Shown: piece by piece, positions 10,767 through 63,687 of the stretch
Layout: each line of letters starts with the position of its first letter
How positions within the stretch are numbered: position 1 is the stretch's first letter
Origin: Geobacteraceae bacterium
Lineage (GTDB): Bacteria; Desulfobacterota; Desulfuromonadia; Desulfuromonadales; BM103
Reading direction: 5' to 3'
Length of the DNA: 64,000 bases
Assembly (NCBI GenBank): GCA_024641085.1
Contig: JAHEDT010000001.1
Span: 1 to 64,000 of the forward strand
Notes under the pieces: model-generated
The model's input: only the letters and a program-made list of their open reading frames with translations
What the model was told of the DNA's origin: nothing
Database searches by the model: none
Program-made: the position numbers and the translations under genes

Positions 10767-12410
10767 TCAGGCGGCTTTGCGGTGGATGAAGTACTGCTGC
10801 AAAATGGTCAGCAGGTTGTTGACCAGCCAGTAAATGACCAGGCCGGAAGGAAAGTTCAGGAACATGAAGGTAAAGATCAGCGGCATCGCCATAAAGATCT
10901 TGGCCTGCATCGGGTCAGCCGTGGTCGGCGTCATTTTCTGCTGCACGAACATACTCGCGCCCATAAGGAGCGGCGTGATGTAATAGGGGTCTTTGGCGGA
11001 AAGGTCGGTCAGCCAGAAGGCAAACGGCGCATGTCGCAGGGCGATCGAATTAAGCAGCACCTGGTAGAGGGCAAAAAAGACCGGGATCTGCACAATCATT
11101 GGCAGACACCCTCCGAGCGGGTTGACGCTGTGGGTCTTGTAAAGGCCCATCATCTCCTTGTTCAGGCGCTCCTTATCGTTTTTGAACTTGTCACGCAGCT
11201 TCTGCATCTCAGGCTGAAGCTTTTGCATTGACTTCATCGACGCGTAGCTCTTGTGGGTCAGGGGCCAGAACAGTAGCTTGATCAGCACGGTCAGCAGGAT
11301 AATGGAGATCCCGTAATTCTTAATAAAGCCGTAGAAGAAGGTCAGAACCATGAAGAGTGGCTGTGCCAGGATGTTGAAGAAGCCGAAATGCACGACCTGG
11401 TCAAGCTGGTGCCCCGCGGCCTTGAGTTGCTCAGGATCTTTCGGACCGATATACACCAGGTAGCTTAATTGACGTTGTTCACCGCTCTGCAGGGTGATGT
11501 CCGGCGATTCCATCAGGTTCTCGATGGCGTCCCCGTTACGCTGTATCTGCACCCTTTCCGACGTCTTGTCTCCAGGAACCACCACGGAAAGAAAATATTT
11601 ATTCTGGAAGGATGTCCAGCCGATGTCCTGGCTGTAGGTGACCGCCCCCTCTTTCAGGCTGTCGATCTTAACTTCTTCTATTTTGCCTTTAACCAGCGAG
11701 GCCGGCCCGGTGAAGGTATAACTGTCGGTCTTCGAAGAATCATCCCAGTGCTGTACCATGGCGAGGTTGATGGTCCCGCGTTGGGTGGTTGGGCTGTTAT
11801 TACGCATCTCAAGGGTGGTATCGATCGTATATTGATTGCCGTGCAGAACATAGCTTTTGACATACTGCATGCCATTGGCCGCAACATGCACGAAACTGAG
11901 TTTAACCATGTCGTTGGCAGCAACCTCGACCACCTCTGGTGCGGAGCTCTCAAAGGGGGTGTCGCCACTCAGGGCAAATCCCTCCGAACCGGTTGTGCGT
12001 AAGGTTGCGTAACGCTCCGGGCCCGCGGTGTACATGTGCACGGGTGGTGAGTCCGCAGCGGCCGTCTCTCGATAATCCTTCAAATTGAAAGAGACCAGTC
12101 GAGCGCCCCGGGTGGTAAATACCGCCTTATATTTAGCGGTTTCAACGACGATCTCCCGCGCGGGTGCAGTACTTTCGGTTGCGGGAACGCTCGCTGACTC
12201 GCTTGCTACGCTGTCCTTGACCATGGTCGCAGACGACTCTGCCGCGGGTTGTACTTTAACATCCTTGACGTCGCCCTGCTGTACGCTTTCCGTTGCGACA
12301 GGTTGCTGCTGATCCTTGGGGACAGGTGGAAACAGAAAGGAAAAGCCCAACCAGACAGCGAGCATGAGGACCATGGCCAGGATGAGGTTTTTATTTTCAG
12401 ATGCATTCAT
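10767..12410 (-). CDS. yidC: Membrane protein insertase YidC
   Basis: Inserts and folds inner-membrane proteins, alone or with SecYEG. The 547-residue protein is the long Gram-negative form. It has an N-terminal membrane helix (LILAMVLMLAVWLGFSFLF), a large periplasmic beta-sandwich domain (about residues 60-335) and the 60KD_IMP core with five helices. The core includes LKLLFWPLTHKSYASMKSM and GGCLPMIVQIPVFFALYQVL. It lies 38 bases after yidD in the rpmH-rnpA-yidD-yidC run. Confidence 0.97.
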   Translation of the reverse strand: MNASENKNLILAMVLMLAVWLGFSFLFPPVPKDQQQPVATESVQQGDVKDVKVQPAAESSATMVKDSVASESASVPATESTAPAREIVVETAKYKAVFTTRGARLVSFNLKDYRETAAADSPPVHMYTAGPERYATLRTTGSEGFALSGDTPFESSAPEVVEVAANDMVKLSFVHVAANGMQYVKSYVLHGNQYTIDTTLEMRNNSPTTQRGTINLAMVQHWDDSSKTDSYTFTGPASLVKGKIEEVKIDSLKEGAVTYSQDIGWTSFQNKYFLSVVVPGDKTSERVQIQRNGDAIENLMESPDITLQSGEQRQLSYLVYIGPKDPEQLKAAGHQLDQVVHFGFFNILAQPLFMVLTFFYGFIKNYGISIILLTVLIKLLFWPLTHKSYASMKSMQKLQPEMQKLRDKFKNDKERLNKEMMGLYKTHSVNPLGGCLPMIVQIPVFFALYQVLLNSIALRHAPFAFWLTDLSAKDPYYITPLLMGASMFVQQKMTPTTADPMQAKIFMAMPLIFTFMFLNFPSGLVIYWLVNNLLTILQQYFIHRKAA

Positions 12411-12448
12411 GGTTAAGAAAAACTCCTAAAATTTTTAATAACGATCCT

Positions 12449-12661
12449 TCAGTCGAGCGGATCATAGCCCCCGGGATGCCAGGGATGACAGCGGGCCAGG
12501 CGTTTGAGACCCAACCAGAGACCGCTCATAACACCGTGCCGATTGACAGCTTCAAGGGTATACGCTGAGCAGGAAGGATAAAATCGACAGGTTGGCGGCT
12601 TCAACGGAGAAAGAAAGGCCCTGTAAAAGCGAATGCCCGCTATGGCTAACCGTTTAGGCAT
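12449..12661 (-). CDS. yidD: Membrane protein insertion efficiency factor YidD
   Basis: Small membrane-associated protein that helps YidC-dependent insertion. The 70-residue product contains the signature RFYPSCSAYTLEA, with its conserved cysteines, and the C-terminal RCHPWHPGGYDPLD. I start it at 12661 (MPKRLAIAGIRFYRAFLSP), overlapping rnpA by 8 bases with GAGG just upstream. An ATG at 12685 is possible but adds unconserved residues. Confidence 0.93.
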   Translation of the reverse strand: MPKRLAIAGIRFYRAFLSPLKPPTCRFYPSCSAYTLEAVNRHGVMSGLWLGLKRLARCHPWHPGGYDPLD

Positions 12662-13010
12662 GATCCTCGGTCTCCAGGCGGGCAAAGACTGTAGTGATTT
12701 CCTGATCCACTTGCAAATGACTCAGGCTTCCAGCGTGGCGCTTGGCTATGATCGAAATATCCACAACCCGGCCGAACTGTTTGTAATGTTGTCTGAATAA
12801 CTCGCGCAGCCAGCGTTTAAAGCGATTGCGACACACTGCATTACCGACTTTACGACTCACGGTTATGCCGAGACGAGAGACCTCCCGTCCCGGATTTACA
12901 ATCACAACAAAATGGGCTGTGTGATAACGTTGTCCCTCTTGCCAGGTTCGTTGATACTCGCTGGAACTGCGAATACGGCGAGCCTTCTGGAGAGTTTGTT
13001 CACCCTTCAC
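12654..13010 (-). CDS. rnpA: Ribonuclease P protein component
   Basis: Protein subunit of the ribozyme that trims tRNA 5' ends. The 118-residue basic protein has the conserved substrate-binding segment RLGITVSRKVGNAVCRNRFKR, with the RNR motif. It lies 14 bases after rpmH and overlaps yidD, as in most bacteria. Length and composition are normal. Confidence 0.95.
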   Translation of the reverse strand: MKGEQTLQKARRIRSSSEYQRTWQEGQRYHTAHFVVIVNPGREVSRLGITVSRKVGNAVCRNRFKRWLRELFRQHYKQFGRVVDISIIAKRHAGSLSHLQVDQEITTVFARLETEDHA

Positions 13011-13024
13011 CCGATGGTTGAACG

Positions 13025-13174
13025 TTACTTGGTCGGGATCGTTACGGCCAAACGTCTGCGACCCCTGGCACGACGACGCTTGATAACATTCACACCACCC
13101 TTGGTGCGCATCCGCTTGCGGAAGCCGTGGGTGCGTTTGCGGCTGACTTTACTGGGCTGATAAGTACGCTTCAT
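13025..13174 (-). CDS. rpmH: 50S ribosomal protein L34
   Basis: A 49-residue highly basic protein beginning [20 protein letters not shown] and ending [11 protein letters not shown], the unmistakable L34 sequence. It opens the rpmH-rnpA-yidD-yidC run on the minus strand, divergent from dnaA across the origin. AGGAG lies 12 bases before the ATG, a slightly long spacing. Confidence 0.96.
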
Positions 13175-13229
13175 GACAGTTCACATCTCCTGTGTATGGC
13201 ATAGGTCTGCTGATTTTTGTAAAAGGCAG

Positions 13230-13258
13230 TTTTAAGCATAGTTGCCAATTAATGTCAA
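13230..13258 (-). promoter_or_regulatory. Putative rpmH promoter
   Basis: On the minus strand a perfect -35 TTGACA (13253-13258) is followed after 17 bases by TTAAAA (or after 18 by TAAAAC) as a weak -10. The start would lie about 50 bases before rpmH. A strong -35 here fits a growth-related operon next to the origin. Confidence 0.5.
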
Positions 13259-13401
13259 GAACGAAAACTCTAGCGTATTTTCAGGCTTTCCTCTTAAAGC
13301 AGTTTTCCCTTGCAATAAAAAACATCCTCTGATAATCTCTAACGTCAAGTTTTCCACTGTTATATATTTATCTAAACCCCTGATTTTAGAATCTTTTTAG
13401 G

Positions 13402-13433
13402 TTATCCACAGTTGTTTAAAAGTTTGTGGATAA
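13402..13433. promoter_or_regulatory. Inverted pair of perfect DnaA boxes upstream of dnaA
   Basis: TTATCCACA at 13402-13410 and its reverse complement TGTGGATAA at 13425-13433 face each other across 14 bases. Both match the high-affinity DnaA consensus exactly. They lie 50-85 bases before the dnaA start, so they could serve origin binding and autoregulation of dnaA. Confidence 0.88.
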
Positions 13434-13485
13434 CCCTGTTTTCACAACAACCCTCTGAATGATTTGAGTCAAGACTGAAACTGGT

Positions 13486-14841
13486 ATGAGCAAACTCTGG
13501 GATGACACCCTTGCGCACCTGGAACTGAATCTCAGTCCACAGCACTTTTCGACCTGGATAAAACCTTTAAAGCTCGTCAAAATAGAGCAGGATATGGTTT
13601 ACCTCGAAGTGCCGAACCGGTTTGTGCTCGACTGGGTCAAGGAGAACTACAGTAAACTCATACAAAAAATTCTCTCAGAGCTCTCCGCGGTCTCCTATCG
13701 CCTGCAATTCAGCGTTACCGGCCAAGCCAGAGACCACCTACCGAAACGTAATAATGTAACGGAAGCAGACGAAAACCCGGTAACCAGCAAACCCAAAATT
13801 CTGACGAACAACCATACTGCCGACTTAAACCTGAATCGCAAGTACACCTTTGAAGAGTTCGTCTCCGGTTCATCGAACCAGTTTGCCTATGCTGCGGCCA
13901 TGGCAGTCGCTAACAACCCCGCAACCACCTACAATCCGCTCTTTGTCTATGGCGGTGTCGGACTTGGTAAAACCCACCTGGTAAACGCAATCGGCAACGC
14001 TATTCTGAAAAAATCTCCGCAGATGCGAATCTGTTACTATACCTCTGAAAAATTCATGAACGAATTAATCAATTCTCTGCGCTACAACCGTATGGACGAG
14101 TTTCGCAACAAGTTTCGTTCCATGGATGTGCTCCTGATTGATGATATTCAGTTTATAGCCGGTAAAGAACGGACTCAGGAGGAGTTTTTCCATACCTTCA
14201 ACGCCCTGTATGAATCGCACAAGCAGATCATCGTCACCTCGGACAAGTTTCCCAAGGACATTCCAGGGCTCGAAGAGCGACTCCGCTCTCGCTTTGAATG
14301 GGGCCTGATTGCCGACATACAACCACCGGATGTAGAGACTAAACTGGCGATTCTCAAAATGAAAGCCGAACAAAACAGCATCAAACTTCCTGAAGACGTT
14401 GCTCTCTTTCTAGCCAACTCGGTCTGTAACAACGTCCGCGAATTGGAAGGTTACCTGATAAGAATTGGCGCTTATGCGAGTCTGACCGCCATTCCGGTTT
14501 CACTGGAGATGACCCGTGACGTTCTCAAAGATATCCTTATCGAACGCAATCGCGAACTGTCTGTGGAAGAAATACTCAAAAGGGTCAGCAGTCATTTCAA
14601 TATCAAAATATCCGACATAAAATCAGCCAAACGGCTTAAGGCGGTGGTTCTGCCCAGACAGATAGCCATGTACCTTTCCAGGCAACTGACGTCATCTTCC
14701 TATCCGGAAATTGGAGAGCGTTTCGGTGGCAAGGATCATTCGACGATCATCCATGCCATACGCAAAATAGACAAACTGATGGAGGAGGACTTTCAACTGC
14801 GCAGCACGATTGAAAACCTGAAAAGTGAGTTGACCGGCTGA
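13486..14841 (+). CDS. dnaA: Chromosomal replication initiator DnaA
   Basis: AAA+ initiator that binds DnaA boxes and melts the origin. The 451-residue protein has domain I (LWDDTLAHLELNLSPQHFSTW), a short variable domain II (about 85-115), the AAA+ core with Walker A GGVGLGKTHL and Walker B VLLIDDIQFIAGKE, and domain IV. Domain IV ends in the DNA-binding signature GERFGGKDHSTIIHA. It is flanked on both sides by origin-like DNA. Confidence 0.98.
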   Translation: MSKLWDDTLAHLELNLSPQHFSTWIKPLKLVKIEQDMVYLEVPNRFVLDWVKENYSKLIQKILSELSAVSYRLQFSVTGQARDHLPKRNNVTEADENPVTSKPKILTNNHTADLNLNRKYTFEEFVSGSSNQFAYAAAMAVANNPATTYNPLFVYGGVGLGKTHLVNAIGNAILKKSPQMRICYYTSEKFMNELINSLRYNRMDEFRNKFRSMDVLLIDDIQFIAGKERTQEEFFHTFNALYESHKQIIVTSDKFPKDIPGLEERLRSRFEWGLIADIQPPDVETKLAILKMKAEQNSIKLPEDVALFLANSVCNNVRELEGYLIRIGAYASLTAIPVSLEMTRDVLKDILIERNRELSVEEILKRVSSHFNIKISDIKSAKRLKAVVLPRQIAMYLSRQLTSSSYPEIGERFGGKDHSTIIHAIRKIDKLMEEDFQLRSTIENLKSELTG

Positions 14842-15074
14842 TAAGTTGTGTAAAAGTGCGTGGGGAACCTGGGGATAAAAAACCTGAACCGTTAAAACCG
14901 TTTTTATCCCTGATTTCCCAACAGCTTGTACCAGAACTTTTCAGTCTAGTAACTAACTGGTATCAAATGAGAATGACAGTTTATAAACGTTTCAACAGCC
15001 CTTACTACTACTACTAAGTTATTTATTTATAAGATACTAAGTATTAAGTAAAACCTGTTGATGGGGAGGCCATT
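14842..15074. other. oriC: Origin region, part 2: dnaA-dnaN intergenic with unwinding element
   Basis: This 233-bp gap has near-match DnaA boxes: TGTGTAAAA at 14847-14855 and TGGGGATAA at 14870-14878, each one mismatch from consensus. A GC cluster, CTA triplets and an almost pure A/T stretch (15019-15059) follow. The order box - GC cluster - triplets - AT-rich DNA is that of the bacterial basal unwinding system. With 13175-13485 it would make a bipartite origin with dnaA inside, as in Bacillus. Confidence 0.75.
15002..15018 (+). promoter_or_regulatory. DnaA-trio element
   Basis: TTACTACTACTACTAAG contains four consecutive CTA triplets, which read 3'-GAT-5' on the opposite strand: the DnaA-trio repeat that guides a DnaA filament onto single-stranded DNA. 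It follows a CCC cluster (14999-15001) and runs into the AT-rich stretch, the expected polarity toward dnaN. Confidence 0.75.
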
Positions 15075-16187
15075 ATGAATTTCACCATAGAAAAAGAGGT
15101 TTTTCTCAAGGGCCTGGCCAGGGTCCAGGGGATCGTCGAAAAACGCAATACCATCCCTGTGCTTTCCAATGTGCTTCTGGAGGGTGCGGATGGTGAGTTG
15201 CGCCTGACTGCAACAGATCTTGAAGTAGGTATGCAGTCAACATATCCGGCCAATATCCGTAAACCCGGAAAGGTGACGGTCTCTGCCAAGAAACTTTATG
15301 AAATAATCAAGGAACTGCCGGACAATCAGGTCAGTTTCAATGCCAAGGAAAACTGCTGGATTGAGGTCGAGTGTGGTAAGGCTCAGTTCAACATCGTCGG
15401 CCTGTCGGCTGATGAATTTCCCAATTTTCCCAAGTCCGATAAAGGTCAATTTGTCACCCTGGCCAGTTCCCTGTGCAAGGAGATGATCGAAAAGACTTTT
15501 TTTGCCGTTTCCCAGGATGAGAGCAAATACAATCTTAACGGAATCTTCTGTCAACTCCAGGAGAATACCGGGCATCTGCGTCTGGTGGCGACCGACGGTC
15601 ATCGTCTTTCGATGATCGATAAAAGTATCGCGAGTACGGCAAGTCCACAATTGTCGAAAGGGTTTATCTTGCCTCGCAAAGGTATTCTCGAATTGAAAAA
15701 ACTCGCTGAAGAGGGCGAGGGTGAACTGCAACTCCACTTCATGGACAACAATGCCGTGGTCAGTAAGGATCGTACGGTTATTATCATGCGTCTGGTTGAT
15801 GGAGAGTTTCCTGATTACAGCCGTGTTATACCAAAGACCAACGAGCAACAGGCAACGATTGCCGTTGGTTCATTACTGCATGCCCTGCGGCGCATGATTA
15901 TCCTTTCCAGTGAAAAATCACGGGGCGTGAAGTTGAATTTCAAAAATAACCTACTGGAACTGTCTTCTTCCAATCCTGAATTGGGTGATGCCAGAGAGGA
16001 ACTCGATATTGAATATCAGGGCCTGGATCTTTCTGTCGGATTCAACGCCCGCTACCTGCTCGATATATTGCAGGTGCAGGACCAGGACAAAATCTGCATG
16101 ATTCTTAAAGATAACCTTTCACCGGGGTTGGTCAAGCCGATCAAAGAGGACGGTTATCTCGCGGTGATCATGCCAATGCGACTCTAA
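15075..16187 (+). CDS. dnaN: DNA polymerase III sliding clamp (beta subunit)
   Basis: Ring-shaped clamp that tethers polymerases and other DNA enzymes. The 370-residue length is normal for three clamp domains. It begins MNFTIEKEVFLKGLARVQGI, contains the VATDGHRLSMI motif at the end of domain II, and ends with the conserved VIMPMRL. GGGAGG lies 5 bases before the ATG. A rho-independent terminator follows it. Confidence 0.97.
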   Translation: MNFTIEKEVFLKGLARVQGIVEKRNTIPVLSNVLLEGADGELRLTATDLEVGMQSTYPANIRKPGKVTVSAKKLYEIIKELPDNQVSFNAKENCWIEVECGKAQFNIVGLSADEFPNFPKSDKGQFVTLASSLCKEMIEKTFFAVSQDESKYNLNGIFCQLQENTGHLRLVATDGHRLSMIDKSIASTASPQLSKGFILPRKGILELKKLAEEGEGELQLHFMDNNAVVSKDRTVIIMRLVDGEFPDYSRVIPKTNEQQATIAVGSLLHALRRMIILSSEKSRGVKLNFKNNLLELSSSNPELGDAREELDIEYQGLDLSVGFNARYLLDILQVQDQDKICMILKDNLSPGLVKPIKEDGYLAVIMPMRL

Positions 16188-56846: not shown

Positions 56847-57341
56847 TTACTTGACGGGGCCGATAAAGAGCCAGTCGTTATTCTTCACGGCAGCATGGCA
56901 GCCGATGCACCCGCCGACCTTGCCTTCTTCCTGAATCGTCCCGTCCGGAAGGGCTTTGAGCCAGAACCAGTCACCGCCATTGGGATTGTAACCGGCCTGC
57001 TTGTACATCACGGTAATCTCGACGAGCTGCTTGTCCGAGGTGTAGTTCTCCTTGACGACAAACTCCCCGGAGGGGATACTGCCCGCTTTCCCTCGGACCG
57101 CCAGGTAGGCCCCTTTGCTGATATAGGTTGTCAACAGGGAACCGTGGGGGAATCTCCCCTGGTAGAACTTTGGCTTGCCGGGCCAGAGCTGCCAGCCCTG
57201 GTAGCCCGACTTATTCAGGAAGGCGATGACCGCCTTGCCGTCAGTGTCAGGTGGCTTGTCACCGGATGGCGGCTGCGCGGCTGATACGTAACCGGACAGC
57301 GCGATGAGCAGCAGAAGGGCGAGTACCAGGAAACGGGACAT
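56847..57341 (-). CDS. Periplasmic monohaem cytochrome, cytochrome P460 family
   Basis: A 164-residue secreted protein: signal peptide (MSRFLVLALLLLIALSGYVSA), then a P460-type beta domain (YQGWQLWPGKPKFYQGRFPHG; FVVKENYTSDKQLVEITVMY) and a single haem c site CIGCH near the C-terminus. AGGAGG precedes the ATG at 57341; an in-frame ATG at 57383 would spoil the signal peptide. Likely an electron carrier or small-molecule redox protein; substrate unknown. Confidence 0.87.
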   Translation of the reverse strand: MSRFLVLALLLLIALSGYVSAAQPPSGDKPPDTDGKAVIAFLNKSGYQGWQLWPGKPKFYQGRFPHGSLLTTYISKGAYLAVRGKAGSIPSGEFVVKENYTSDKQLVEITVMYKQAGYNPNGGDWFWLKALPDGTIQEEGKVGGCIGCHAAVKNNDWLFIGPVK

Positions 57342-57472
57342 GGCGACCTCCTCCAGGCTGAGCGTGAGGGAATCTACTATCATTCAAACAGGGGAATGGG
57401 CCTTGTCAATTGCCCTGGGGCCAGATCGTTATTCGTTGCGCTGGTGTGGAGCGGAGATTCTGGTGCCTGTGG

Positions 57473-57930: not shown

Positions 57931-58443
57931 CTAGTCGAGAACGGTCACGGCCTGGATGACCACCGGTTCCCGGGGGACATCGTCGTATCCGGCGAGGCTC
58001 GCCGTCGCCTGCTGCTCGATAGTGTAGACAACGGCCATGCCGTCGACCACCTGGCCGAACACCGCGTAGCCGTACATCTCCGGCTTGAGACCGCCATGGT
58101 CAAGGAACTTGTTGTCGTCGGTATTGATGAAGAACTGGGCGGTGGCACTGTCGATTTCTGCGGTGCGCGCCATGGCCACGGTTCCGGTTTTGTTCCTGAG
58201 CTTGTTGGGCGCCTCGTTGACGATCGGCGCGCCGGCCGGCTTCTCCTGCATGTCCGGTGTCAAGCCGCCGCCCTGGATCATGAACCCCTTGATCACACGG
58301 TGGAAGATGGTGCCGTCGTAGTGGCCGGATTTGGCGTAGGCGATGAAATTCGCGACGCTGACCGGGGCCTTGTCTCGGTCGAGTTCCAGGAGGATCTCGC
58401 CATGGGTGGTTTCAATCTGAACCAAAGGTGTTCTATCGCTCAT
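57931..58443 (-). CDS. Peptidyl-prolyl cis-trans isomerase, cyclophilin type (cytoplasmic)
   Basis: Second cyclophilin of the window, without a signal peptide. The 170-residue protein starts MSDRTPLVQIETTHGEILLEL with AGAGGA 7 bases upstream. It has ANFIAYAKSGHYDGTIFHRV, FMIQGGG, ATAQFFINT and the GYAVFGQVVDGMAVV motif. A frame open to 58506 lacks a better start. It resembles PpiB. Operon links to its neighbours are loose. Confidence 0.94.
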   Translation of the reverse strand: MSDRTPLVQIETTHGEILLELDRDKAPVSVANFIAYAKSGHYDGTIFHRVIKGFMIQGGGLTPDMQEKPAGAPIVNEAPNKLRNKTGTVAMARTAEIDSATAQFFINTDDNKFLDHGGLKPEMYGYAVFGQVVDGMAVVYTIEQQATASLAGYDDVPREPVVIQAVTVLD

Positions 58444-58669
58444 GGCAGTTCCTCTTGGGGGTAATAACGCTGTCCTGATTATAGGCAGTGCGGGCGACGA
58501 TGGCAACCCGTCTGCGGGTCCGCAGTCACGGCAAGTGTCATAATTTTCACGGTTAACTCCTTAATAATATTGCCAAGCGCTATTGAGCCGTTAAACTGCA
58601 TAGGAAATGAGCCGGCCCAGAACCTGTGGCTGGATGCCGATTCCCCGGTTCGCTGAAGGTGCTGCAACG

Positions 58670-59440
58670 ATGAATATGTTCTTGCTTGCCATAAGCGTGC
58701 TGCTGATTTTCATGACCATGGTCTTTGCCTTGGCCATGTTTCTCAAGGACAATAGCATCGTTGATGTTGCCTATGGCCTGGCCTTTGTGCTGGTCTGCTG
58801 TGTTGCCTATCTCGGCAGCGGCATTGGACATCCGAGGCAGCTTCTCGCTTTAGGCATGACAACTCTCTGGGGAGTACGCCTGGCAACCCACATCTTCCTG
58901 CGCAAACGCGGTGAAGGTGAAGACTTCCGCTATCGACGCTGGCGTGAAGAATGGGGGGGCGCCTTTATCTGGCGCAGTTATCTGCAGATTTTTATCTTGC
59001 AGGCTGCCGTGGTCTTCGTTGTGGCCCTGCCGATCTTGTTAATAATTAACCATTCCGGACCTGAGCTGGGGTCGCTCGACTTGGCTGGCTGCCTGGTCTG
59101 GCTGTTCGGCTTCGGCTTCGAGGCTGTGGGTGACTGGCAATTACTGAAGTTCAAGAAGAATGATGTAAATCGTGGGCACATTATCCAGTCAGGTCTGTGG
59201 CGCTTCACCCGGCATCCGAATTATTTCGGCGAGGCCACACTCTGGTGGGGGCTGTTTCTAGTCGCCTTGAATGTGCCATACGGGGTCGTCGCCGTGCTCA
59301 GCCCGGTATTGATCGGTTTCCTGCTGCTCAAGGTCTCCGGCATACCGATGCTGGAAATCAAATACCGGGGACATCCGGAGTTTGAAGCATATAAAGAGAG
59401 GACCAACGCATTCTTCCCATGGTTCCCGAAGCACGGATAA
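58670..59440 (+). CDS. DUF1295 membrane protein (steroid 5-alpha-reductase-like)
   Basis: A 256-residue protein with about six membrane helices and the signature block GLWRFTRHPNYFGEATLWWG, the NAD(P)H-binding-like end of the DUF1295/ICMT fold. AAGG precedes the ATG at 58670; an upstream in-frame ATG (58607) adds 21 unconserved residues. It is 4 bases before the FAD protein gene, so it is probably co-transcribed with the lipid genes. It may reduce a lipid double bond, by analogy only. Confidence 0.88.
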   Translation: MNMFLLAISVLLIFMTMVFALAMFLKDNSIVDVAYGLAFVLVCCVAYLGSGIGHPRQLLALGMTTLWGVRLATHIFLRKRGEGEDFRYRRWREEWGGAFIWRSYLQIFILQAAVVFVVALPILLIINHSGPELGSLDLAGCLVWLFGFGFEAVGDWQLLKFKKNDVNRGHIIQSGLWRFTRHPNYFGEATLWWGLFLVALNVPYGVVAVLSPVLIGFLLLKVSGIPMLEIKYRGHPEFEAYKERTNAFFPWFPKHG

Positions 59441-59444
59441 GAGA

Positions 59445-60734
59445 ATGAGTGTCACAATGGCGGCTCATGACCAAGGACAGAAGATCGCGGTGATCGGGGG
59501 CGGGGTTGCCGGCATTGTTGCTGCCTTCCTGCTTCAGCAACGGCATGACGTCAGTCTGTTTGAGCAGCACGACTATCTCGGCGGCCATACGCATACCATT
59601 GAGATCAAAGATGGGCCTGATGCCGGTCTTGCGGTCGATACTGGTTTTATCGTTCTCAATGAGGCCACCTATCCACTTTTTAAAAAATTTCTCTCCCGGC
59701 TCGGTGTTACGACCCGGGCCTCCGAAATGTCCTTTGGTTTTCAGTGCCTGCAGAGTGGTCTGGTCTATGCCGGGACCGATCTCAATGGCCTGTTTGCCCA
59801 GCGGCGCAACCTGTTCAACCCAAACTTTTTCCGGTTTCTGTTCGAGATCAAGCGCTTTTGCCAAAAGGCTCGTCAGGATCTCCACCAAGGAAACTTCCCG
59901 GCGGTCACCCTGGGCAAGTACCTGGCTGAAGGGCGTTTCACGCCTTTCATGGTTGACAATTACCTGGTACCGATGGCCGCGGCGATCTGGTCGACGCCGG
60001 CGCTGCAGATCGCCAATTTCCCTGCGGAGCCGTTCCTGCGTTTCTTCTACAACCACGGCCTGTTGTCTTTAAAAAATCGCCCGCAGTGGCGAACAGTGGT
60101 CGGAGGCAGCCATACTTATGTCAAAGCGTTCAGCCGAGAATTCCGTGGGCGACTGCACCTCGAGGTGGCAGCCCAAGGCATACAGCGCGAACGCGACGGC
60201 GTCAGAATTTCTCTTGCTGGCGGGGAGACCTTGTTGTTCGATCAGGTCGTCATCGCCACTCATGCCGACCAGGCCCTTCGTCTGCTCAGCGATCCATGCC
60301 CTCTGGAACAGCAGCTGCTGGAGCCCTGGCGCTATCAGTTGAACCACACGGTGCTGCACACGGACAGCTCTCTTCTGCCAGAGCAAAAAAGGGCCTGGGC
60401 TGCGTGGAATTTTACCCGCGCGGCCAAAGACGACTTTGAGCGACCGGTCTTCGTGACCTACTACATGAACCGGCTCCAGGGTCTTGCGGCACACCGGGAA
60501 TACTGCGTGACTCTCAATCGCCAGGAGCCTTTCCGGGCAGAAACTGTGATCGTCGAAATGGATTATCTTCATCCCCTCTTCACCTTCGAATCGATGGCGA
60601 CCCAGGCTCAGCTACCGCAACTCAACGGCCAGCAAAGAACCTATTATTGCGGCAGCTACTTCGGCTACGGTTTTCATGAAGACGCGGTCAGGGCCGGGCT
60701 GGCCGTGGCGCAGGCCTTCGGGATCGATCTATGA
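59445..60734 (+). CDS. FAD-dependent amine-oxidase-like protein
   Basis: A 429-residue flavoprotein with the FAD site IAVIGGGVAGIVAAFLLQ near residue 17, the block DTGFIVLNEATYPLF and the family ending YYCGSYFGYGFHEDAVRAG. Its relatives are encoded beside Cfa-like methyltransferases and DUF1365 proteins. The plant cyclopropane synthase carries a similar FAD domain. It overlaps the DUF1365::CFA gene by 4 bases (ATGA). A role in oxidising or desaturating a membrane-lipid acyl chain is inference. Confidence 0.88.
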   Translation: MSVTMAAHDQGQKIAVIGGGVAGIVAAFLLQQRHDVSLFEQHDYLGGHTHTIEIKDGPDAGLAVDTGFIVLNEATYPLFKKFLSRLGVTTRASEMSFGFQCLQSGLVYAGTDLNGLFAQRRNLFNPNFFRFLFEIKRFCQKARQDLHQGNFPAVTLGKYLAEGRFTPFMVDNYLVPMAAAIWSTPALQIANFPAEPFLRFFYNHGLLSLKNRPQWRTVVGGSHTYVKAFSREFRGRLHLEVAAQGIQRERDGVRISLAGGETLLFDQVVIATHADQALRLLSDPCPLEQQLLEPWRYQLNHTVLHTDSSLLPEQKRAWAAWNFTRAAKDDFERPVFVTYYMNRLQGLAAHREYCVTLNRQEPFRAETVIVEMDYLHPLFTFESMATQAQLPQLNGQQRTYYCGSYFGYGFHEDAVRAGLAVAQAFGIDL

Positions 60735-62704
60735 ATTCCAAGATTTATCTCGGCGAGGTCAGCCATACCCGCCTGGCGCAGCAAAGGCACAGTTTCCGCT
60801 ACCCGGTTTATTTCTACGCCTTCGACCTGGAGGAGCTGCCAAAGTTCGCCCGGCAGACCGCCCTGTTCGGCTACAACCAGCTGCGGCCGGTGGCCATCCA
60901 TGACAAGGACTACCTGGGTCACGGGGCGGAGCCGCTTCGCGAAAAGCTCGCAAAGGTTATGGCCCGTGCCGGCAGAACAGTGAACCTGGGGCAGGTTGTT
61001 CTGGTCACGGCCGCGCGCTACTGCAACTATATTTTTAACCCGATCAGCTTTTTCTACTGCTACGACCCAGGCGGTCGACTGGTTTGCGTGGTAGTACAGG
61101 TCAGAAATACCTTCGGAGAGATGCATCTCTATCTGCTGGATGTAGAGGGCGCCGAAGGTGTTCATGGCAGGTTGAGATTCCGGACCGATAAACAGTTCCA
61201 TGTTTCGCCATTCTTCCCCCGCAAGGGGCATTATGAGTTTCGTTTGACCGAGCCGGTTGGCACGGTCGACAATACCATCATGTATTCTGTCGACGGCCAG
61301 CTCGCGCTGGTGGCCCGGATCCACGGCCAGGCATTCGACCTGACACCTGGCCGTCTGACTCGCACCATCATCACGCACCCGATCTGCGCCAGCCTGACCA
61401 TGCCGAGAATTCTTTGGCAGGCGGCAAGGCTCTATTGGCAGAGGAGGCTCCCCGTGTACCGGAAGCCGGTTCCCGAAAGCGCCATGACTGTTCGTGGGGT
61501 TCCCCCGACCTGGCTCGATCGGCTGGGCATGTGTTTGACCCTTAAATTCCTGGCCCGATTGCCGCAGGGCGCACTGCTGTTGACCACCCCGGATGGCAGA
61601 CAACACCACTTCGGGCAACCTGGGGCTGAGTCATCCGTGGCCTTGGCTGTAAGAGAACAACGCTTCTTTCGACGGGTGATGTTTTCGGGCGACATTGGTT
61701 TCGGTGAAGCCTTCACTGCAGGCGAATGGACGACTTCCGATCTGCCGGGGCTGCTGACCTTGCTGGCCGCCAACGAGGCCGCCATGAATGATCGCAGTAT
61801 TGCCTCTGCGGCAATTGGACGTCTGGTCAATTACCTTCACCACCTGGTGAGACCGAACACGGTGAAAGGCAGTTCACGCAACATCCGTGAACATTACGAC
61901 CTGAGCAACGATTTCTTCGCGACCTTCCTCGACCCGAGCATGACTTATTCTTGTGCGTTGTTCGACACCGGGACCGAAACCCTGGAGCAGGCGCAGCGTC
62001 ACAAGCTGCGGGCCATTATCAATAAGGCGCAGATTACCGCGGACGACCATGTGGTCGAGATCGGCTGCGGGTGGGGCAGTTTTGCCATCGAGGCGGTACG
62101 GCAGACCGGCTGCCGGGTTACCGGGATCACCGTATCCCAGGAACAACTGGCCCTGGCCCGGAAAAGGGTTCGCGATGCCGGTCTCGACGGGCAAATCGAG
62201 ATTAGATTCTGCGACTATCGACACATTGAGGGACGCTACTCGAAAGTTGTGTCGATCGAAATGCTCGAAGCCGTAGGTCACGCTGGATTGAAGCACTTCT
62301 TCGCTGCTTGCGACCGTGCCCTCGAGCCCGGAGGCCTCGCCGTGATCCAGGTCATCACCATCCCGGACCGCAAATATAAAGCCTACCGCTACAGCTCCGA
62401 CTGGATCCGCAAACATATCTTCCCCGGAGGTCATCTGCCATCAATCGGTGCCATGACGGCGGCCATGGCGCAGGTTTCGACGCTGCACATGGCAGAGTTC
62501 GAACAATACGGCCTTGATTATGCGAAGACCCTCGCGTGCTGGCGCAAAACCCTGCTTTCCCGCCGGCGGGACATTCTTCAGCTTGGCTACGATGACGTAT
62601 TTCTGCGTAAATGGGAGTACTATTTTGCCTATTGCCAGGCCGGATTTTCCGCGCAGATTATCGATCTGGCGCAGATGGTCCTGATCAAGCCGGCGCGTTC
62701 GTGA
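60731..62704 (+). CDS. DUF1365 domain fused to cyclopropane-fatty-acid synthase
   Basis: A 657-residue fusion. Residues 1-230 are DUF1365: YLGEVSHTRL, the YPVYFYAFDLEEL motif, NYIFNPISFFYCYD and VRNTFGEMHLYLL. After a linker, about 265-655 are a Cfa-type SAM methyltransferase with EHYDLSNDFFATFLDPSMTY (387 on), the SAM motif VVEIGCGWGSFAIEA (441 on), VSIEMLEAVGH and the C-terminal YFAYCQAGF. The frame is unbroken. Elsewhere these are usually separate adjacent genes. It should methylate unsaturated acyl chains; the product could be cyclopropane or methyl-branched. Confidence 0.95.
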   Translation: MNSKIYLGEVSHTRLAQQRHSFRYPVYFYAFDLEELPKFARQTALFGYNQLRPVAIHDKDYLGHGAEPLREKLAKVMARAGRTVNLGQVVLVTAARYCNYIFNPISFFYCYDPGGRLVCVVVQVRNTFGEMHLYLLDVEGAEGVHGRLRFRTDKQFHVSPFFPRKGHYEFRLTEPVGTVDNTIMYSVDGQLALVARIHGQAFDLTPGRLTRTIITHPICASLTMPRILWQAARLYWQRRLPVYRKPVPESAMTVRGVPPTWLDRLGMCLTLKFLARLPQGALLLTTPDGRQHHFGQPGAESSVALAVREQRFFRRVMFSGDIGFGEAFTAGEWTTSDLPGLLTLLAANEAAMNDRSIASAAIGRLVNYLHHLVRPNTVKGSSRNIREHYDLSNDFFATFLDPSMTYSCALFDTGTETLEQAQRHKLRAIINKAQITADDHVVEIGCGWGSFAIEAVRQTGCRVTGITVSQEQLALARKRVRDAGLDGQIEIRFCDYRHIEGRYSKVVSIEMLEAVGHAGLKHFFAACDRALEPGGLAVIQVITIPDRKYKAYRYSSDWIRKHIFPGGHLPSIGAMTAAMAQVSTLHMAEFEQYGLDYAKTLACWRKTLLSRRRDILQLGYDDVFLRKWEYYFAYCQAGFSAQIIDLAQMVLIKPARS

Positions 62705-62721
62705 TTGTGCAGCGGGGCTCG

Positions 62722-63276
62722 ATGTCATCATTCGCGACCAAACTGCTCAATGTTGGTCTTTATCAGCTCGGCTGGTTATGTTGTGTGGTTGGGGCCGCAT
62801 GGGACTTCCCGGTCATCGGTGCCATGATAGCCCTTGGACTGACCGGTATCCACCTCCTCCTGGCAGATTCGCGCAAGGCCGAAAGCACCCTGATGATTGG
62901 CTCCTGCCTGATCGGGGTTATGGTGGACAGCATCCAGCAGGAACTTGGTGTCTTCACCTTCAAGATGCAACCAGACTGGCCGTTATGGTTGCCGCTCTGG
63001 GTACTGGTCGTCTGGGCGCAGTTCGCCACCCTCTTCCACTATGCCCTCGCTTGGCTGTCCGGCCGCTATCTGCTGGCTGCAATCCTCGGTGCGTTAGGTG
63101 GTCCGCTGGCTTACTGGGGAGGGGTCAGCCTGGGCGCCGCCGTGTTCGGCGCAAACCCTGGGTTGAGTCTGATGACCCTGGCGATGACCTGGGTGCTGGT
63201 CATGCCCGCGCTGCTCTGGTTGAGCGATCAAGGACCAAGCGGAGAAGGCTGTTATCGTTGGAAAGGCTCGCAATGA
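62722..63276 (+). CDS. DUF2878 membrane protein
   Basis: A 184-residue protein with about five membrane helices and the family pattern LLNVGLYQLGWLCCVVGAAW at the start and VDSIQQELGVF mid-protein. I start it at ATG 62722; GTG 62701 overlaps the preceding stop (GTGA) and is a fair alternative. DUF2878 genes recur beside Cfa/DUF1365/FAD genes in proteobacteria. No activity is known. It ends 3 bases from the convergent DUF2177 gene. Confidence 0.85.
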   Translation: MSSFATKLLNVGLYQLGWLCCVVGAAWDFPVIGAMIALGLTGIHLLLADSRKAESTLMIGSCLIGVMVDSIQQELGVFTFKMQPDWPLWLPLWVLVVWAQFATLFHYALAWLSGRYLLAAILGALGGPLAYWGGVSLGAAVFGANPGLSLMTLAMTWVLVMPALLWLSDQGPSGEGCYRWKGSQ

Positions 63277-63279
63277 GGC

Positions 63280-63687
63280 TCAGTTGAGCCAACGCCCGAT
63301 CAGGTAGCTGCCGGAGGCTACCAGGGCACAGAGCAGGGTGCCCCAGGCGATGTCGACCACGACAATTTTGAGTGGCCATTCCTTGAGCGTCGCCAGGTTG
63401 GTAAGATCGTAGGTCGCGTAGGTAAAGAAACCGAACAGGGCCCCCCAGATTGCGGCTTTGGCCAAACTTTGGTCGGCCAGCGCCGGCTTGACGGCAAACA
63501 GAATGATCCCGGCGATATAGATCAGGTAGAAGGCGAAAGCGGCCGGCCAGTTGACCGAAGGGCTCAAGAGATGGGCGAGGTTCTTCTGGTAGAGATCCTT
63601 GGCGATGACCCCCAGCCAGAGCAGGTCAATCGCGAAAAACAATGGGATCGTCAGCAGGTACAGCTTCAGGTAAAATGGGGCATTCAT
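63280..63687 (-). CDS. DUF2177 membrane protein
   Basis: A 135-residue protein with about four membrane helices and the family features IDLLWLGVIAKDLYQKNLAHLL and FFTYATYDLTNLATLKEWP. I start it at 63687 (MNAPFYLKLY), with GGAGG 6 bases upstream; an ATG at 63711 adds 8 residues. It belongs by family to the same lipid-linked gene set, although it faces the DUF2878 gene. Function unknown. Confidence 0.87.
   Translation of the reverse strand: MNAPFYLKLYLLTIPLFFAIDLLWLGVIAKDLYQKNLAHLLSPSVNWPAAFAFYLIYIAGIILFAVKPALADQSLAKAAIWGALFGFFTYATYDLTNLATLKEWPLKIVVVDIAWGTLLCALVASGSYLIGRWLN

Follow-up and report, generated by a model that had tools for sequence, protein, structure and literature searches.

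A predicted furan-fatty-acid-type operon with a fused UfaO::UfaM gene in a Geobacteraceae genome

Gene content and layout of the cluster

The DNA analysed here (the window) is the initial 64 kb of contig JAHEDT010000001.1 (226 kb) from a Geobacteraceae bacterium, and its features are given in window coordinates. At 58670-63687, a tight run of four genes on the + strand encodes a DUF1295 membrane protein, a flavin adenine dinucleotide (FAD)-dependent amine-oxidase-like enzyme, a fusion of DUF1365 with a cyclopropane fatty acid (CFA) synthase-like methyltransferase, and a DUF2878 protein. A DUF2177 gene is convergent with this run.

58670-59440, + strand: DUF1295 membrane protein, 256 amino acids, steroid-5-alpha-reductase/ICMT-like (Pfam DUF1295 E=3.6e-70, Steroid_dh E=4e-8)
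59445-60734, + strand: FAD-dependent oxidoreductase, UfaD-like, 429 amino acids (Pfam Amino_oxidase E=2.1e-20, NAD_binding_8)
60731-62704, + strand: UfaO::UfaM fusion, 657 amino acids in one frame (Pfam DUF1365 E=7.4e-72, CMAS E=1.5e-83)
62722-63276, + strand: DUF2878 membrane protein, start ATG 62722, alternative GTG 62707 (Pfam E=5.2e-34)
63280-63687, - strand: DUF2177 membrane protein, convergent (Pfam E=2.8e-49)

The first two genes are separated by 4 nt, the start of the fusion gene and the stop of the FAD gene share an ATGA overlap, and DUF2177 lies 3 nt past the DUF2878 stop, on the opposite strand. The initial annotation had described a tightly packed five-gene cluster with convergent DUF2177; its positions were correct, and all families were confirmed by Pfam. 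Six more host-family genomes have the complete five-gene order with DUF2177 convergent, and in further family genomes it was interrupted by contig ends alone, while a few related loci put DUF2177 elsewhere. Because the order recurs across family genomes, the block is not a chance arrangement. The distribution is patchy, with DUF1365 present in 11 of the 22 host-family genomes. Across several genera of the family, DUF1365 identity is 62-73%, with gene order and overlaps conserved, and all of the window genes are intact. The nearest named relatives by DUF1365 are a Desulfuromonadales metagenome-assembled genome (MAG; 71%) and Desulfuromonas sp. BM509 (66%).

The core genes resemble ufaD, ufaO and ufaM

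Judged from their sequences, the FAD, DUF1365 and CFA-like genes have the family content and order of the ufaD-ufaO-ufaM genes of furan fatty acid (FuFA) synthesis. In Rhodobacter sphaeroides and Rhodopseudomonas palustris, the CFA-like, S-adenosylmethionine (SAM)-dependent UfaM yields 11-methyl-12t-18:1, which UfaD turns into the 10t,12t diene; the furan is formed by UfaO, which belongs to DUF1365 and uses oxygen from O2 (PMC7380195). Three R. palustris genes, RPA2571-2570-2569 (order D-O-M), are enough for R. sphaeroides to make the furan (PMC7380195). The three genes are also consecutive in Halomonas, whose UfaM makes 11-methyl-octadec-12-enoate in Escherichia coli (PMC12089945). In Pseudomonas syringae, PSPTO_1116 is the best match to R. 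sphaeroides UfaM, and is numbered beside the UfaO homologue PSPTO_1117 and the UfaD homologue PSPTO_1118 (PMC5507510).

The window encodes all three families, i.e. an FAD enzyme of the amine-oxidase/desaturase family, DUF1365 and a CFA-like methyltransferase, in adjacent D-O-M order, identical to that of R. palustris. Among the 80 nearest named loci, which include none from Rhodobacter or Rhodopseudomonas and of which 79 could be scored for gene order, the FAD gene lay directly upstream of DUF1365 in 75/79, and the CFA-like gene was fused to DUF1365 or directly downstream of it in 67/79. The FAD enzyme of the window is 43% identical to one found upstream of DUF1365 in Azospirillum, where the genes adjoin an extracytoplasmic function (ECF) sigma factor and ChrR, and its closest solved structure is LkcE (E=1e-35).

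The initial annotation had linked the cluster to furan or methylated fatty acids and to singlet-oxygen relatives in proteobacteria, and this link was borne out. It had also proposed an uncharacterised acyl-chain modification; the acyl-chain modification stands, but "uncharacterised" does not hold for the core, as the chemistry of UfaD, UfaO and UfaM has already been shown (PMC7380195). The window shares with the pathways of R. palustris (RPA2571-2569) and R. sphaeroides (RSP1091, RSP1090, RSP2144) the three protein families and the predicted substrate class, cis-vaccenoyl phospholipid. Unlike these, it has UfaO and UfaM as one protein, lacks sigmaE-ChrR, includes DUF1295, DUF2878 and DUF2177 in the block, and belongs to a Desulfuromonadales MAG.

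The UfaO::UfaM fusion

In the fusion protein, DUF1365 occupies residues 1-247 and the CFA-like methyltransferase starts from about residue 269. The full-length model (predicted local distance difference test score, pLDDT, 87; predicted template modelling score, pTM, 0.78) is consistent with two folded domains. The fusion was found in nearly all family genomes with DUF1365, the exceptions being one with separate DUF1365 and CFA frames (G019) and one in which the gene is split across contigs (G008). A tree built from 82 DUF1365 rows placed the 32 fused ones together inside one supported clade of 40 (100/99), and the fusion label changed 5 times, compared with 25.6 in shuffles; in this labelling L034 was scored as unfused though it is fused, and a contig end truncates L080. 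Members of the fused clade belong to Desulfobacterota, Omnitrophota, Poribacteria, Kiritimatiellota and Lentisphaerota, with one from Bacillota.

A different fusion is known from Arabidopsis, where AtUFAMD1 (AT3G23510) matches both UfaD and UfaM and, together with AtUFAO1 (AT1G30130), provides homologues of the three functions (PMC10940516). Whereas the plant protein joins UfaD to UfaM, the window joins UfaO to UfaM, supporting successive action of UfaO and UfaM on one acyl chain. A DUF1365::CFA frame of 1100 amino acids was also seen (L063:6001-9300), in which about 440 C-terminal residues had no Pfam match.

Residue signature of the methyltransferase half

The catalytic bicarbonate of E. coli CFA synthase is bound by Glu239, His266 and Tyr317 (PMC11387697). 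The C-terminal half of the fusion has its family and SAM chemistry in common with that enzyme, and keeps the equivalents of Glu239 and Tyr317, but His266 is replaced by Gln, leaving the Glu-His-Tyr bicarbonate ligands of a cyclopropane synthase incomplete, and the His following Glu239 is replaced by Ala. Ala and Gln were found in 25/25 intact fused proteins, the window's own among them and one genome being counted twice; the single exception row among fused proteins (L066) is frame shifted in the signature region. Of the separate enzymes encoded next to DUF1365, 50 could be read at the Gln position, and 49 of these had the same pair. His-His, on the other hand, was found in all 19 CFAs that follow DUF1295, and is kept by the host genome's own ordinary CFA paralogue (C151:208 kb). 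An altered deprotonation site would fit a product with a shifted double bond rather than a ring. The Ala/Gln signature is a simple sequence test, which could re-label many "cyclopropane synthases".

The DUF1365 half

The DUF1365 model was very confident (pLDDT 94.7), but a Foldseek search with it against the Protein Data Bank gave no match at E<=0.001. By VIA-align, 3bdr scored best (Z 7.4) and nitrobindin reached Z 7.0, values typical of models that have no clear structural counterpart. The leading matches were mostly calycin-type barrels (Ycf58, haem nitrobindins, spirocyclase OlmO and FABP). Since a Z of 7.4 lies within background, a calycin-like fold is only suggested, and neither a cofactor nor haem is proposed. 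Residues H12, R14, F102, P104, T127, Y134, K154, S159 and P160 are invariant and retained in fused and unfused forms. A candidate metal site (H12, D60, H157) was dropped, because H157 was less than 85% conserved in a wider alignment.

Accessory genes

In a sample of 297 genomes of the phylum, 24 of them with DUF1365, the accessory families were strongly associated with DUF1365 by a Fisher test that ignores phylogeny: DUF1365 was present in 13/18 genomes with DUF2177 (p = 1e-12), 12/20 with DUF2878 (p = 3e-10) and 16/27 with full-length DUF1295 (p = 6e-14). A Shinella plasmid carries FAD, ECF, ChrR, DUF1295, CFA, DUF2177 and DUF1365 genes in one locus, and the window proteins are 32% (DUF1295) and 47% (DUF2177) identical to their counterparts there. 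A sequence search for a solved structure related to DUF1295 found none; from its family, it may be a membrane reductase.

In Chlamydomonas, singlet oxygen induces CFA1, CFA2, DUF1365, DUF2177 and DUF1295 in a SAK1-dependent manner (PMC4067076). CFA1, DUF1365, DUF2177 and DUF1295, which are induced together, are in common with the window, but the algal genes are scattered, eukaryotic and SAK1-regulated, and the available part of the study reports no lipid product (PMC4067076). In Aeromonas, an operon with cfa, SDR, FAD, DUF1365 and DUF2878 genes responds to riboflavin (PMC10012899). RSP1087-1089 of R. sphaeroides encode a short-chain dehydrogenase/reductase (SDR), a hypothetical protein and a GPH symporter (PMC7074977), and are dispensable for the furan product (PMC7380195); operon partners therefore need not be catalytic. 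A literature search, in sources available in part, found no function for DUF1295, DUF2878 or DUF2177 in a furan-type context. The three families become testable parts of one module, a view backed by the alga, in which singlet oxygen induces DUF1295 and DUF2177 along with the CFA and DUF1365 genes.

Several further loci carry these families. In the named loci L086-L138, a second CFA-like gene, with His-His, often accompanies DUF1295, which suggests that DUF1295-CFA is a separate two-gene unit travelling with Ufa genes; the window has DUF1295 without that CFA. A second DUF2177 (L006:4748-5155; G000:C85) is 78% identical to the window gene at the nucleotide level, over 386 bases. It is preceded by an ADP-ribosylglycohydrolase-like gene and followed by one for a UvdE UV-damage endonuclease, with renalase-like FAD and lipid-transport/cyclase-like proteins encoded upstream; this region is possibly a UV/light-stress island. 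Close to the end of its contig, a second DUF2878 (L007:6538-7648; G000:C65) precedes a chalcone isomerase-like (Chalcone_3) gene, and chalcone isomerase-like genes also adjoin furan-type clusters in Cupriavidus and in L031/L032.

Regulation

No sigma factor or ChrR-like gene had been noted in the window, and this held; ChrR (TIGR02451) was also found in 0/22 genomes of the host family, while a Caulobacter control genome was detected. A look past 64000 for regulators, proposed in the initial annotation, revealed no sigma factor, ChrR or MerR among the genes on that side. These genes encode an exo/endonuclease-phosphatase, a two-component pair (DpiA-type response regulator and cache-domain kinase) and a Tct transporter, and are unrelated to the cluster. 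On the other side, two features lie upstream of the operon:

57931-58440, - strand: cyclophilin-type isomerase, divergent
58570-58597, + strand: inferred sigma70-like promoter, TTGCCA-N16-TAAACT (consensus scan)

The pattern TTGnnn-N16/17-TAnAnT was found upstream of DUF1295 in 9/10 family loci, against 0.59 expected from shuffles, a count that overstates independence because some of the loci are near-identical. TGATC-N17-19-TA(A/T), the ECF11-type promoter pattern, was absent upstream of the window operon. None of the 18 named fused loci had ECF, ChrR, MerR or photolyase genes beside it, whereas among the 62 separate (unfused) loci ECF was near 9, ChrR near 7, MerR near 3 and photolyase near 8. 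The cluster has lipid genes in common with the sigmaE-ChrR (ECF11) singlet-oxygen regulon, and loci of Shinella, Azospirillum and Brevundimonas combine ECF-ChrR with these families, but the host family differs in lacking ChrR, as do the fused loci in lacking such neighbours. The operon is probably transcribed from a sigma70-type promoter without ChrR.

Two other features of the window are a small secreted-looking protein matching Cytochrome_P460 (56847-57383, - strand), and a region with a G+C content of 46-50%, against about 59% around it (12001-16000), which is possibly a foreign insert.

Proposed pathway and alternatives

Taken together, the cluster is probably a furan-fatty-acid-type operon in a new architecture (UfaO::UfaM) and a new regulatory setting, with the accessory proteins in the same module. 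It differs from the studied cases in the fusion, the absence of ChrR and the conserved sigma70-like promoter. The chemistry can be carried over, by analogy, from the relatives in which the three steps were shown. The C-terminal half (UfaM) would use SAM to methylate a membrane phospholipid on a cis-unsaturated acyl chain, where the double bond would shift without cyclopropane closure, giving a methyl-branched trans-olefin. The FAD enzyme (UfaD) would desaturate it, giving a conjugated methyl-diene, and the N-terminal half (UfaO) would insert one oxygen atom from O2 and close the furan ring, so that an expressed cluster would yield the same product as in the relatives. The first and last enzymes, being in one chain, may be held together at the membrane, with possible channelling between them. 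DUF1295, DUF2878 and DUF2177 would serve the same module as accessory proteins in the membrane, with DUF1295 perhaps a reductase.

Oxygen supply bears directly on this pathway. The host genome has two haem-copper oxidase genes, with no match to cytochrome bd, and at least one haem-copper oxidase gene was found in 21/22 family genomes. The host can probably use oxygen, and as its family has these oxidases, O2-dependent chemistry is possible there.

Several points weigh against the furan pathway. The product is predicted, the cluster being known here from its genes, and the DUF1365 domain shares only about 32% identity with an alphaproteobacterial counterpart encoded next to ECF-ChrR. The Ala-Gln signature was defined on DUF1365-linked, predicted UfaM proteins, and DUF1295, DUF2878 and DUF2177 lie outside the three-gene set sufficient in R. 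sphaeroides. Moreover, UfaD and UfaO depend on O2 (PMC7380195), whereas most of the fused clade comes from anoxic lineages. In the phylum sample, a haem-copper oxidase was present in 2/9 fused versus 12/15 unfused genomes (p=0.01), an association that is a lead only, since it is not phylogenetically independent (5/9 fused genomes are from one family).

It is conceivable, although unlikely, that the fusion marks a pathway branch adapted to anoxic bacteria and uncoupled from light and ChrR, whose product differs (e.g. methyl-branched and DUF1295-completed) or is made only in brief oxygen exposure. An alternative for the window cluster is a methyl-branched, non-furan chain, in which UfaM methylates with a double-bond shift, DUF1295 and/or the FAD enzyme reduce or rearrange the product, and the DUF1365 half either serves a different purpose or needs no O2. 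The mostly anoxic make-up of the fused clade and the scarcity of haem-copper oxidases among its genomes in the phylum sample would fit, as would the steroid-5-alpha-reductase-like DUF1295 being first in the operon. So would the strict anaerobe Desulfospira joergensenii as a carrier of the fusion. This alternative is nevertheless unlikely, given the invariant DUF1365 residues kept equally in both forms, an FAD enzyme of the amine-oxidase/desaturase family, 43% identical to that of an ECF-ChrR locus, and the oxidases of the host family.

If this were simply a cyclopropane fatty acid operon that carries passenger genes, it would agree with the matches of the C-terminal half to CFA synthases of known structure (5z9o, 7qos, 6bqc), but this reading is very unlikely in view of the Ala and Gln found throughout the subclass and the canonical-residue CFA encoded elsewhere in the genome. 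A dormant or decaying, horizontally acquired block without present function would explain the patchy occurrence, but scarcely merits belief with intact genes, arrangement conserved across several genera and a conserved promoter.

With the furan-fatty-acid-type operon as the preferred explanation, an O2-dependent, protective-lipid pathway known from phototrophs and related aerobes would now be placed in sediment Desulfuromonadales and in related anoxic lineages, outside ChrR control.

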